Shown: piece by piece, positions 20,443 through 25,367 of the stretch | How the letters are laid out: the number at the start of each line of letters is the position of its first letter | Numbering within the stretch: position 1 is the stretch's first letter | Assembly: GCF_003337245.1 (NCBI RefSeq) | Contig: NZ_QPJE01000006.1 | Location: 1-64,000 of the forward strand | Direction: 5' to 3' | Length of the DNA: 64,000 nt | DNA from: Halanaerobium sp. MA284_MarDTE_T2 | GTDB lineage: Bacteria > Bacillota > Halanaerobiia > Halanaerobiales > Halanaerobiaceae | Notes under the pieces: generated by a model | Told to the model about the DNA's origin: nothing | The model's input: only the letters and a program-made list of their open reading frames with translations | The model's database searches: none | Position numbers and translations under genes: made by a program

Positions 20443-21879
20443 TTATTTTAATTTCAGATTTGATCTTTCAGCAAAATTTTCTATTAACTTTCTGGCAGCT
20501 TTTGGATTTATCATACTTCCAGGGCCACCTATACATCCATCTTTACAGGCCATTCCTTCAAGAAAGTCAAAATTACTTTTTCCTGCCTTTAAATTAGTCA
20601 ATTTTTTTATACATTTTGCCAGGCCTTCAGCATTATCAGCTTTTATTTTTCCTTCAGATAATTCTTCTATTACACCTTTCAAACCCCCAGAATAAGCAAA
20701 TTGTCTGCCGAATTTTGAAGCATCTCTAATTTCTCTTCTTTCAATGACTTTTTCAAGATTAATCTCAAATCCAGTAATAAGAGCTATGAGTTCTTCAAAT
20801 GTAAGCACATAATCTACCACTTCACTATCTGCTGCCTCCTCTTTTTTAGCAGTACAGGGTCCAATAAATACAGTATTTATGTCTGAATTATATCTCTTTA
20901 ATTTTTCTGCAGTTGTTAACATTGGTGAATCAGTATGTGAGAGATTATCTTTTAGATCAGGAAAGTCATTTACTATCATCTTCTTAAAAGCAGGACAGCA
21001 GGAACTAAGCAATATTCTATCATTTTCTAAACTCTCTATAGCTTCTCTGCTTTCTTCTAATGCAACTCTATCTGCTCCTTCTGCAACTTCAATAACTTCA
21101 TCAAAGCCTATTTCTAATAAAACATATTTTACTGTTTCAGGGCTTACTTTAAATCCAAATTGTCCTACAAAAGAAGGTGCAATTAAAGCAGCAGTTTTTT
21201 CATCTTTTTTTAATATTTTATCGGTAACCTGCACAATACTTGACTTATCAGCGATTGCTCCAAATGGACATGCTACTATACATCTTCCACAGACTACACA
21301 TTTTTCTTTATTAATTCTCGCCTGTCTTTTAGCATCAGATTTTATGGCATCTACCTCACAGACTCTGACACATGGTCTGCTGTTTTCTAATATTGCTCCA
21401 TAAGGGCATTCTCTTGCACATTTTCCACATTCCAGACATTTGTTCTGATCAATAAATGCTTTGTTCTGGATAATTACAATTGCATCTGCTGGACAGGAGT
21501 TAAGACATTTATGAGCCACACAGTTTCTACAGGCATCAGTTACTATATATTTATCAATGGGACAGCTGTCACATGCCTGTTCAATAACTTCAACAATATT
21601 ATTTATATTATCAGCCTTATAGAGATCTGAAGCTAACTCATGTAACTCTATATTTTTATTATTTAAAGTACTATATCCAAGAGCCATTTTTATTCTCTCT
21701 GAAAAAATCGCCCTCTCTTTAAATTCACAGCATCTGTATCTTGGTGTGTCGTCTCTGATCATTTTTTTGGGAAGATAATCTATTTCTTCTACCAAATTTT
21801 CTTTTATCATCATTTTGACCAATTCTACATATAGCTTTCTTTTTAATTTAACTACCTCAGAGATGGTATTATTGGACAC
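20443..21879 (-). CDS. Monomeric group B [FeFe]-hydrogenase with multiple [4Fe-4S] domains
   Basis: A 478-residue hydrogenase-family protein. The N-terminal quarter is the helical region typical of group B enzymes, then CRNCVAHKCLNSCP, CLECGKCARECP and CVVCGRCIVACP bind [4Fe-4S] clusters between residues 140 and 230. The H-cluster motifs follow: SSCCPAF (about 291), IGPCTAKKEE (about 338) and EGMACKDGCIGGPG (about 438), so all four H-cluster cysteines are present. L1 has SSCCP in place of TSCCP. Group B enzymes are poorly characterised in vivo. The start is the GTG at 21879, eight bases after AGGAG; an upstream GTG overlaps the ribosome site. Last gene of the Rex-operator operon. Confidence 0.9.
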   Translation of the reverse strand: MSNNTISEVVKLKRKLYVELVKMMIKENLVEEIDYLPKKMIRDDTPRYRCCEFKERAIFSERIKMALGYSTLNNKNIELHELASDLYKADNINNIVEVIEQACDSCPIDKYIVTDACRNCVAHKCLNSCPADAIVIIQNKAFIDQNKCLECGKCARECPYGAILENSRPCVRVCEVDAIKSDAKRQARINKEKCVVCGRCIVACPFGAIADKSSIVQVTDKILKKDEKTAALIAPSFVGQFGFKVSPETVKYVLLEIGFDEVIEVAEGADRVALEESREAIESLENDRILLSSCCPAFKKMIVNDFPDLKDNLSHTDSPMLTTAEKLKRYNSDINTVFIGPCTAKKEEAADSEVVDYVLTFEELIALITGFEINLEKVIERREIRDASKFGRQFAYSGGLKGVIEELSEGKIKADNAEGLAKCIKKLTNLKAGKSNFDFLEGMACKDGCIGGPGSMINPKAARKLIENFAERSNLKLK

Positions 21880-21890
21880 TTCTATCACTC

Positions 21891-22130
21891 CTATTGTGTT
21901 TTTTTTCTTATAATCTTACTCAATCTCTCAGGGGTAACATCAAAATATAATTTATCATCAAATTTTATTACAGGTCCTTTTTCACATTTATCCTCTAAAC
22001 AGTGGGATGTCCTCAACTCAATCTTATCTTTTATTCTACTTTCAAGATTATTGTAGTATTCTATTAACTCTGAGGCTCCCATCAGATAACAGGGTGTTCC
22101 TATGCATATTTCCAGTATTTTTTTAGTCAA
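21891..22130 (-). CDS. Thioredoxin-like [2Fe-2S] ferredoxin (NuoE/HydC-like small protein)
   Basis: A 79-residue protein with a thioredoxin-like [2Fe-2S] fold, as in NuoE. Cluster cysteines are seen as CIGTPC near residue 9 and CLEDKC near 44. It is shorter than a NuoE subunit and lacks that protein's N-terminal helical domain. It starts with TTG after GGAGG and ends two bases before the RBS-overlapping start region of the group B hydrogenase, so it is a likely electron partner of that enzyme. A paralogue opens the operon at 25078. Confidence 0.85.
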   Translation of the reverse strand: MTKKILEICIGTPCYLMGASELIEYYNNLESRIKDKIELRTSHCLEDKCEKGPVIKFDDKLYFDVTPERLSKIIRKKTQ

Positions 22131-22199: not shown

Positions 22200-23354
22200 T
22201 TAATACCATTCAATATAAATCTCTTTTTTTAGCTTTTTTAAATGGGTTGCTATCAAACTTATTATCTGGCTTCTTATTCCAAGCTCAAGTGGCAGGTTAA
22301 GACTCTGATGTGATTCATTGACTGCTCTGCCAACAAGAAATGTTATTTTATCACTTTCTAATAAGAGTTTTAATAATTTTGAAGCACCATCTTCCTTTTT
22401 AATAATTATCTGTCCAGGTTTATAAGTTTCTAATTTATCAAGTACTTTATTTAATGTCAAAAGACCTTCTGTTAATAAATCAATACCTTCCATCTCACTA
22501 ATCGGCGGTACACTTTTATCTTCATATTTTAGGCTTGTTTTCAATTCTCTATCAAGCTCTCTAGCTGCAATATGAGCTGTTGTTCCTCCACTAATAACTT
22601 TTTTGCCATCTGATTTAATCAATTTTTTTACAATACGGCTGTCGTCCTGCTTTTTTAGAGGTGGGCCTGACCAGAGAGTAAGTTTTCTTTTTTCTCTATA
22701 TCTCATACCTATTATTGTAAAATCATCTCCTGGCTTATCTTCATAAAAAGCCATAAAAATCTTTACCAGCTTTTCAATAATTTCTTTTAGATCAAAATCA
22801 TTATAATTGATTACTCTAGTAATTTGTTCTGCTGTTCCATCCCACCCTAAACCAAAACTTAAAAGACCACCTAAACCGGCATGTATTACTCCATCACTAA
22901 CTAAAAACAACTTATCATTTTTGTGAAAGTGAAAACTACTTTCTCTAATATTTTTTCCTTCCAGCACATATTCTTTATAATTTAATTTTTCTATTTTTCC
23001 ATTTCTATACAAAAAAGCTGCTGGGGTATCTATTTCTACCAGTTTAGCATCTTTATTATGGTCAATTACCATAAAAGCCAGAGTAGCATATGCAATACCT
23101 CTAACTTCACAGACAGGCAGAGCAGCTAAAATTGTTGAAAGTATTTCTTTAAGTGGAAGCTCTTTTTCTAGCAAACCAGATGCAATTTTTGAGGTTAGAG
23201 TTGATAATATATTGGCTTTAATACCACTTCCCAACCCATCAGAAAGAACAATAATTGTCTTATCGTTTTTCTTAATTATTTCTACATTGTCTCCACATAC
23301 TTCTTGACTATATTTAGGAACTGATTGATAAAACTCTTCAAATACTATATCCAA
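22200..23354 (-). CDS. SpoIIE/PP2C-type serine phosphatase in hydrogenase operon
   Basis: A 384-residue protein whose first 230 residues form a PP2C phosphatase of the SpoIIE group. The metal-binding aspartates are seen in IVLSDGLGSGIKAN near residue 34, FLVSDGVIHAG near 150 and GDDFTIIGMRY near 206. The last 150 residues form an extra domain I cannot name. The protein has no membrane segments, unlike SpoIIE itself. It starts at TTG two bases after the sensory hydrogenase gene, so the two are translationally linked. I infer that the sensor's state is passed to this phosphatase, which would dephosphorylate an unknown regulator. Comparable hydS-phosphatase pairs are known in clostridia. Confidence 0.87.
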   Translation of the reverse strand: MDIVFEEFYQSVPKYSQEVCGDNVEIIKKNDKTIIVLSDGLGSGIKANILSTLTSKIASGLLEKELPLKEILSTILAALPVCEVRGIAYATLAFMVIDHNKDAKLVEIDTPAAFLYRNGKIEKLNYKEYVLEGKNIRESSFHFHKNDKLFLVSDGVIHAGLGGLLSFGLGWDGTAEQITRVINYNDFDLKEIIEKLVKIFMAFYEDKPGDDFTIIGMRYREKRKLTLWSGPPLKKQDDSRIVKKLIKSDGKKVISGGTTAHIAARELDRELKTSLKYEDKSVPPISEMEGIDLLTEGLLTLNKVLDKLETYKPGQIIIKKEDGASKLLKLLLESDKITFLVGRAVNESHQSLNLPLELGIRSQIISLIATHLKKLKKEIYIEWY

Positions 23355-23356
23355 GG

Positions 23357-24868
23357 CTATTCACCCACCTGAAGCAGGTCTGACAGCTCTGAAAGTGCTG
23401 CTTTTGTTTCCACAGTTGTTTCTCCTAATAAACCTGCTATTTCCTGTACTATCTGCATCTGTTTATTTATTACAATATTTGTTTTTTCTACAGCAAGTTT
23501 TTTCATTTCCTGTACTTCTTCTCTCTGTTTTTCCTGTTCTGTTATATCTGTCAGTATACCTATTACAACTTTGTGTTCTGGAAGAGGAAATATTGTTTGA
23601 TCAACTACAGTACTTCCGTCGAAATATGAATATTTATGATGTGAAATTATCTGCTGATTTAACCAGGCTTTTTTGAATATAGAACTATCTATTATTTTAC
23701 CCAGCTTTAAATTTTTTATTTTTCTATTATTTTTATTAAACAATTTATTTGCTACCGGATTAAATTCCTGAATTTCCATTTTCTCATTGACAACTATTAT
23801 AGCATTGTGCGAGGATTCCACTATGATTTGAGAGAGTGATTCTGCTCTTGATTTCATATATGGTATACACATTTTCTTTTCTGCAAATCCATAATAAACT
23901 GCTGCTGCCTTTTCTCTACAGGTAGAATAACCACAGCCTCCGCAGTTTTTTTCATCTTCTTTAGAATATTTACCTATTGAAACAAGTATTTCTCTTATTG
24001 CTTGTTCGGGTGGTTCTTCACGAATTTTTTTCTTATCTTTATGAATACGGTTTAAATCAATCTTTTCTCTAACAGCAGTTTTGCTTTTCTCCGGATCATA
24101 ACTTTGGGATTTTTGCAGATAATTGTTAACTAATATTTCCTTTACCGGTATACTGAGGTCATTTTCTATTGCTGGTCCGGAGATACATCCTCCATCACAG
24201 GCCAGCAGCTCTACAATATCTGTATTTAATTTCTCTTTTTTTATATCCTCAAGCACTTCAACAATATTATCTATTCCACTTATGTAAACTGAAGTTATTT
24301 TATTATCAATTCCATCAGCACTTAAGCCAGCTGCCTTTACCGCTCCACCTGAAAGTGGATAATCAGCAATTTGTGGGCCAGCCACCAGATCTGGTTCAGA
24401 TTCCTCAAAGTCTTCCGGGAAAATACCATTTTCCTCAAATAAAACTCTCAGCTGTTTAAAATTAATAACAATATCAGGTCTTAATAATCTATCTTCAACC
24501 CGATTCATTTCCTCTATTTTCGATAGGCACGGTCCGATAAAAATTACTCTTGCCTTTTTATACTTTCTTTTTAATTCTCTGACCTGCAGCATCATTGGTG
24601 ATAAAACCGGGGCCAGCTGTGGAATTAATTCTGGATAATGTTTTTCAATCAAATTAACAACAGTAGGACAGCAGGAAGTAATTAAAGATTTGTTCATATT
24701 ATGAGCATGATAATTAAACATTGCAGCAACCCTTTTTGCAGCTTCAGCTGTCTCTGCAATATACTCAAAACCAAGTTTCTTTAGAGCTGTAATAATCTGA
24801 CCACTTTTATATTCAGGAAAAGCAGCTGCAAATGACGGGGCAAGTGAGGCAATAATAAAACTGTCAGA
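23357..24868 (-). CDS. HydS-type sensory [FeFe]-hydrogenase, catalytic-like domain, Fe-S domain and PAS (after an in-frame TAG)
   Basis: This open frame encodes the larger part of a group C (sensory) hydrogenase. The H-cluster-like motifs are SLAPSFAAAF just after the stop codon, ITSCCPTVV, IGPCLSKIEE and LLACDGGCISGP. Next come a [4Fe-4S] domain CGGCGYSTC plus a further cysteine, a PAS domain (ESSHNAIIVVNEKMEIQEF onward) and a coiled-coil tail ending at a TAG stop. It is continuous in frame with the ferredoxin piece at 24869-25081, with only one TAG between. The first in-frame ATG is 24721; a restart there would lose SLAPSFAAAF. In a full protein this would be residues 72-574. Its job is inferred to be H2 or redox sensing that controls the neighbouring phosphatase. 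Confidence 0.8.
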   Translation of the reverse strand, partial: SDSFIIASLAPSFAAAFPEYKSGQIITALKKLGFEYIAETAEAAKRVAAMFNYHAHNMNKSLITSCCPTVVNLIEKHYPELIPQLAPVLSPMMLQVRELKRKYKKARVIFIGPCLSKIEEMNRVEDRLLRPDIVINFKQLRVLFEENGIFPEDFEESEPDLVAGPQIADYPLSGGAVKAAGLSADGIDNKITSVYISGIDNIVEVLEDIKKEKLNTDIVELLACDGGCISGPAIENDLSIPVKEILVNNYLQKSQSYDPEKSKTAVREKIDLNRIHKDKKKIREEPPEQAIREILVSIGKYSKEDEKNCGGCGYSTCREKAAAVYYGFAEKKMCIPYMKSRAESLSQIIVESSHNAIIVVNEKMEIQEFNPVANKLFNKNNRKIKNLKLGKIIDSSIFKKAWLNQQIISHHKYSYFDGSTVVDQTIFPLPEHKVVIGILTDITEQEKQREEVQEMKKLAVEKTNIVINKQMQIVQEIAGLLGETTVETKAALSELSDLLQVGE

Positions 24869-25081
24869 CTAAAGAAAAGACTCCACTTTCTTTTTTTCAA
24901 ATAATGCCTCCTTTGCCCCCTGGGGACAGGTTTTAATACAATTACCACAGTATATACATTTATCTTCTATAATCCAGACCTGATTATCTTTAAAACCAAT
25001 TGCACCAACACCGCATTCCCTGAGGCATTTATGACAGTCTTTACAGCTTGCTGGATGAACTATTAGAGGTTCTACCATCAT
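24869..25081 (-). CDS. N-terminal ferredoxin domain of the HydS-type hydrogenase, ended by an in-frame TAG
   Basis: This 70-residue piece is a 2x[4Fe-4S] ferredoxin domain with CKDCHKCLRECG near residue 12 and CIYCGNCIKTCPQGAK near 41. That is the usual N-terminus of group C hydrogenases. It ends VESFL and then TAG at 24871-24869. The very next in-frame codons read SDSFIIASLAPSF, the conserved beginning of the hydrogenase domain. It starts with ATG ATG at 25081, overlapping the upstream ferredoxin's TGA. Either the gene is inactivated by a nonsense mutation, or it is split, or the amber codon is read through. Confidence 0.8.
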   Translation of the reverse strand: MMVEPLIVHPASCKDCHKCLRECGVGAIGFKDNQVWIIEDKCIYCGNCIKTCPQGAKEALFEKKKVESFL

Positions 25082-25323
25082 AAACACTCACTTATTTTTT
25101 CTCTAAATATTTTCTCAGCATTTTCCGGGCCAACATCTGGAATGATTTTACCATCAATAACTACATTAACCCCATTTGTACAATTTCCCTGACAAAAACT
25201 TGCACTGAGCTCCACTTTGTTATCTAAACCTAATTTTTTATGTAAATTTTTAAAAATATCAACAACTTCTGCAGCTCCTTTTAAGTGACAGCTGCTTCCT
25301 ACACAAATAGAAACGTTTTTCAT
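25078..25323 (-). CDS. Thioredoxin-like [2Fe-2S] ferredoxin, first gene of the hydrogenase operon
   Basis: An 81-residue NuoE-like [2Fe-2S] protein with cysteines at CVGSSC near residue 6 and FCQGNC near 45, then the C-terminal VNVVIDGKIIPDVGPENAEK. It is about 40% like the second small ferredoxin in overall pattern by eye, so the operon carries two of these. The ATG at 25323 is preceded by GAGGTGAT. Its stop overlaps the start of the HydS ferredoxin domain by four bases (ATGA). It is probably an electron carrier between the hydrogenase proteins and NAD(H) or another partner. Confidence 0.85.
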   Translation of the reverse strand: MKNVSICVGSSCHLKGAAEVVDIFKNLHKKLGLDNKVELSASFCQGNCTNGVNVVIDGKIIPDVGPENAEKIFREKISECL

Positions 25324-25349
25324 TATCATCACCTCTATTTTTTCTATTT

Positions 25350-25367
25350 TTGTGAATATCTTCACAA
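25350..25367. promoter_or_regulatory. Rex operator (perfect palindrome)
   Basis: TTGTGAATATCTTCACAA is a perfect inverted repeat of TTGTGAA with a four-base centre, the consensus for the NADH-responsive repressor Rex in Bacillota. It lies four bases past the -10 box, over the expected transcription start of the hydrogenase operon. Repression should be relieved at high NADH/NAD+. Confidence 0.9.

Follow-up and report, generated by a model that had tools for sequence, protein, structure and literature searches.

Group C (M2f) sensory [FeFe]-hydrogenases, such as HydS of Thermotoga maritima (TmHydS), are reported with an N-terminal 2[4Fe-4S] domain, an H-domain, a C-terminal FeS cluster and PAS-like domains, and TmHydS shares its operon with a second [FeFe]-hydrogenase gene (PMC13104023, PMC10055695). 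The gene described here, from the salt-loving Halanaerobium sp. MA284_MarDTE_T2, has this published layout and likewise a further [FeFe]-hydrogenase gene in its operon. It differs from TmHydS by an in-frame TAG that interrupts it between the ferredoxin and H domains.

Two other kinds of genes are comparable. The pyrrolysine-decoded genes of other Halanaerobiia (MttB/MtbB/MtmB type) also carry an in-frame TAG. Unlike those, the TAG of HydS falls in a variable linker rather than at a catalytic position, and our searches of its genome returned no PylS, MttB or CUA tRNA. The second kind are nonsense pseudogenes as met in bacterial draft genomes, with one premature stop codon in an otherwise intact, dispensable regulatory gene and with intact relatives. 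Nothing was seen to set the HydS case apart from these.

The interrupted gene and its operon

The window is the whole stretch of 64,000 nucleotides that was analysed, and the HydS gene lies on its minus strand. The N-terminal part (24872..25078) encodes 69 aminoacids with the 2[4Fe-4S] ferredoxin domain (Pfam Fer4_10/Fer4). It is followed by the in-frame TAG (24869..24871, read from 24871 to 24869), in the codon series ...GAG TCT TTT CTT TAG TCT GAC AGT TTT ATT ATT GCC TCA CTT GCC CCG.... The translation runs ...KKKVESFL, then TAG, then in the same frame SDSFIIASLAPSF. The remainder (23357..24868), with the H-domain, the C-terminal FeS cluster domain and the PAS-like region, stays open for 503 codons and ends in a TAG at 23359-23357, which makes the interruption the sole stop ahead of the terminal one. 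It is codon 70 out of 573, counted from the ATG at 25078; the original prediction placed it at codon 71, a number that holds if an ATG three bases upstream is used.

The H-domain matches PF02906 (E=3.7e-48) and the C-terminal FeS domain matches PF04060 (E=7.3e-8), with the spacing C-x2-C-x4-C-x16-C. The PAS match is weak (E=8e-4, below the cut-off of Pfam). The H-cluster cysteines C137, C184, C294 and C298 are invariant in 24/24 aligned sequences, and all 17 cysteines of HydS are present and in register with the orthologues. This order of domains (ferredoxin, H-domain, C-terminal FeS cluster, PAS) is the one reported for group C sensory hydrogenases, T. maritima HydS among them (PMC13104023, PMC10055695), and supports the predicted assignment as a group C-type HydS. 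With the TAG at codon 70, and with all orthologues continuous, this is therefore a HydS gene that is either broken or recoded, and it does not count as an intact member of the group.

A chance junction of two ORFs is ruled out, as the halves jointly match single-gene orthologues over 573 residues; the best match of the joined halves outside their own genome goes down to E=2.9e-246. An RF2-like frameshift at CTT-TAG was rejected because the H-domain continues in the frame of the TAG itself. Past the TAG come 49 codons without a start, with strongly coding-like codon usage, and a reading of the frame found no ATG, GTG or TTG between the TAG and the ATG at 24721 (codon 120, 24719..24721, minus strand). 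The original prediction described a single in-frame TAG splitting a HydS-type gene that was otherwise free of frameshifts and other lesions, with intact cysteine motifs, no start ahead of the SLAPSF segment and a first ATG that removes it. Codon reading on the minus strand and the alignment, with 17/17 cysteines in place, bear out each of these points; a start at 24721 would lose 49 residues of the H-domain.

The neighbours of HydS in the operon, all on the minus strand, are intact. Upstream, and overlapping the HydS start, is a [2Fe-2S] thioredoxin-like ferredoxin (25078..25365, PF01257), found in the same order in relatives. Downstream are a SpoIIE/PP2C-type phosphatase (22200..23354, PF07228, E=2.9e-19), a second [2Fe-2S] thioredoxin-like ferredoxin (21891..22130, PF01257) and a monomeric group B1 [FeFe]-hydrogenase (20443..21888, TIGR04105, 539 bits for a cut-off of 450). 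The gene order is conserved in Halanaerobium.

Relatives at the position of the TAG

Orthologs were searched in 61 genomes. One group of these (g3) we infer to be Halanaerobium, as named Halanaerobium records, in which a scan of genome contigs found orthologues, match the same loci. The alignment holds 23 relatives that cover almost the full length of the protein (40-67% identity), and in every one of them the frame stays open across the position of the TAG. Among the orthologues covering this region in the 61 genomes, the stop is present solely in the gene under study.

Seven of the eight g3 orthologues have Glu there and the remaining one has Ala. Outside this group the residue is S, T, K, Q, N, D, A, E or L, and none of the 14 columns in residues 61-75 is invariant. 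These mixed residues in open relatives argue for a variable linker in which a sense codon turned into TAG. As the residue was ancestrally most often Glu, the codon was probably GAG or GAA; GAG to TAG, a single base change, would be the likeliest path. The original prediction had pointed to the orthologues for the residue at this codon, and had also considered two separate genes with a start at this point. The residue is most often Glu and never a stop, and in the 61 genomes no orthologue was found to be divided into two genes with a new start at the TAG.

HydS is dispensable in the family, because four of the twelve g3 genomes have no orthologue (G004, G006, G011 and G012, three of these being 99% complete). 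On another contig (C7) of the genome, an 855-aa protein (L108:15710-18277, minus strand) combines a ferredoxin, a divergent H-domain, an FeS domain and PAS with a sigma-54 activator ATPase and HTH, and may feed a HydS-like signal into an NtrC-type regulator. Homologues of similar length occur in relatives without HydS, which makes it a possible partial substitute.

In terms of constraint, HydS differs at one of the 92 columns that are invariant in the other sequences (G to N, residue 456), inside the range of 0 to 6 such deviations in intact orthologues. Identity to Halanaerobium is 80-81% for the ferredoxin domain, 58-59% for the H-domain and 66-68% for the C-terminal part. These values are comparable to those of the phosphatase (68-70%) and the second hydrogenase (55-57%), so HydS is not evolving unusually fast, and by these comparisons the remainder of the gene is not decaying.

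In the part after the TAG, 5.4% of single-base changes would give a stop. This limits the neutral substitutions since the loss to about 54 at most, at 95% (3.2% of sites), when all substitution types are equally likely, and to about 200 when only transitions occur. With no further stop or decay, three options follow: a recent lesion, one that is not real, or a gene that remains in use.

Mutation, sequencing error or decoding

We consider a recent nonsense mutation in a group C-type HydS gene the best reading, and a probable one. The premature stop is absent from relatives and the gene is dispensable, as in nonsense pseudogenes. The counterpoint is that the remainder looks fully constrained, as it would be in a functional read-through gene.

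The main rival, possible though rather unlikely, is a mistake in base calling or assembly, the true codon being a sense codon, probably GAG (Glu), in an intact HydS. The assembly is a draft of 69 contigs, and apart from the TAG the gene is intact and normally constrained. Among 60 domain matches surveyed for ABC ATPases, a single gene is clearly broken. This ecfA-like gene, on the HydS contig (C6 about 90,675-91,117, L091), has a frameshift at about 90,960, apparently at an A7 run; the second ATPase gene adjoining it is intact. This frameshift is either an assembly error or a real lesion, and the assembly thus has at least one other lesion, real or error. Homopolymer slips are, however, a different type of error from substitutions, and a substitution in unique, non-repetitive coding sequence is an atypical assembly error. 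No further nonsense codon of this kind was found in 458 kb.

These 458 kb correspond to the window plus 20 stretches. Scanning them for stops with coding-like flanks and no nearby start turned up another three candidates, all unconvincing: two look like antisense noise, and the third is the normal end of alaS followed by a separate gene. A scan for ORFs without a start found four, and the missing start was confirmed by homology in HydS alone. A 577-codon, probable NhaC-like ORF (L098, about 18,755, minus strand) has 23 coding-like codons ahead of its first usual start, possibly owing to a rare start codon. From this sample, recoding appears not to be widespread in the genome.

As for pyrrolysine, a search of the genome with TIGR03912 (N-terminal part of PylS) gave no match, and with TIGR02367 (C-terminal part) the best score was 29.7 bits vs a cut-off of 178. 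The search does work, as six relatives of the order or class exceed the curated cut-off (G023, G026, G029, G048, G052 and G055), so that the pyrrolysine system is scattered through the class and absent from this genome. There is also no match in it to MttB (PF06253), a methylamine methyltransferase of the type with an in-frame TAG.

ARAGORN read 49 tRNA matches, 48 canonical and one tRNA-Sec (contig C35:14334-14427, L083); with the latter, some UGA codons of the organism are probably read as selenocysteine. None of the 49 has a CTA anticodon, although an unusual tRNA-Pyl below the reach of the model is conceivable. The list is incomplete, because tRNA-Ile(GAU) and tRNA-Ala(UGC) were not seen; both usually lie within rRNA operons, often missed by drafts.

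The RF1 gene (prfA) has an intact ORF of 360 aa. A TAA flagged in it falls outside the open frame, which discards a loss of RF1. TAG is a normal stop that ends 41 of the 253 long ORFs. Pyrrolysine recoding (no PylS, MttB or CUA tRNA), a suppressor tRNA (no CUA anticodon among the 49) and reassignment of TAG (RF1 intact, TAG terminating normally) were all rejected. The original prediction held routine reassignment unlikely, from several genes ending in TAG, and the count and the intact RF1 agree with it; the pyrrolysine genes it named as worth looking for gave neither PylS nor a CUA-anticodon tRNA. Its three choices (nonsense mutation, base-call error, read-through) were the right ones, with pyrrolysine or suppressor read-through now largely removed.

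What remains for decoding at the TAG is trace read-through by a near-cognate tRNA. That this yields a useful full-length sensor, with a variable linker tolerating any residue, is unlikely. The orthologues do accept E, A, S, T, K, Q, N, D and L at the position, the 503 codons downstream look constrained, and a sensor may need few copies. On the other side, RF1 is intact, no suppressor tRNA or pyrrolysine system was found in the genome, and the TAG is shared by no relative. The base after the TAG (+4) is U, a strong termination context; in E. coli, U at +4 lowers read-through (PMC5289835). Lastly, no stimulatory RNA structure was found 3' of the TAG, the region being no more structured than its shuffles (z=+0.5).

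A split into two products, with the ferredoxin on its own and an H-domain/PAS protein started anew past the TAG, is highly improbable: a AAAAAGGG stretch does lie about 9 nt upstream of ATG 24721 and all H-cluster cysteines are 3' of it, but this ATG is not conserved (the aligned residue is mostly E/Q/K or other, with M in one distant relative), its use would drop the conserved SLAPSF strand with the other residues ahead of it, no ATG, GTG or TTG is nearer to the TAG, and a two-gene form with a restart here occurs in none of the orthologues. The evidence for read-through and for restart is permissive only. It is also very doubtful that the sensor is held low by UAG read-through, or made as a stub together with an H-domain protein that starts anew, with the stop acting as a dosage control of H2 sensing in this lineage.

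Overall, the evidence favours a recent and ordinary mutation that abolished the function of the gene, or an error of sequencing, over a novel reading of the code. Among the papers listed for Halanaerobium and pseudogenes, none was evidently about this HydS gene.

Probable consequences for hydrogen sensing

If the recent nonsense mutation is real, the linker codon would have turned into TAG and RF1 would end translation there, leaving a stub of 69 aa with the ferredoxin domain. The H-domain/FeS/PAS part would be unmade, made in traces, or made in a shortened form that starts at ATG 24721 and does not fold. Because termination by RF1 would leave this part unmade or non-folding, the cell would be without its H2 sensor HydS. 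The downstream phosphatase and hydrogenase genes would stay intact, possibly with lower expression.

The TAG in HydS thus gives no ground to propose a new decoding, and the finding is correct but ordinary. If the mutation is true, this species would naturally lack HydS in an operon that is otherwise conserved, composed of a [2Fe-2S] protein, HydS, a SpoIIE-type phosphatase, a [2Fe-2S] protein and a group B1 hydrogenase. Such a natural null would be useful for asking which targets HydS controls.
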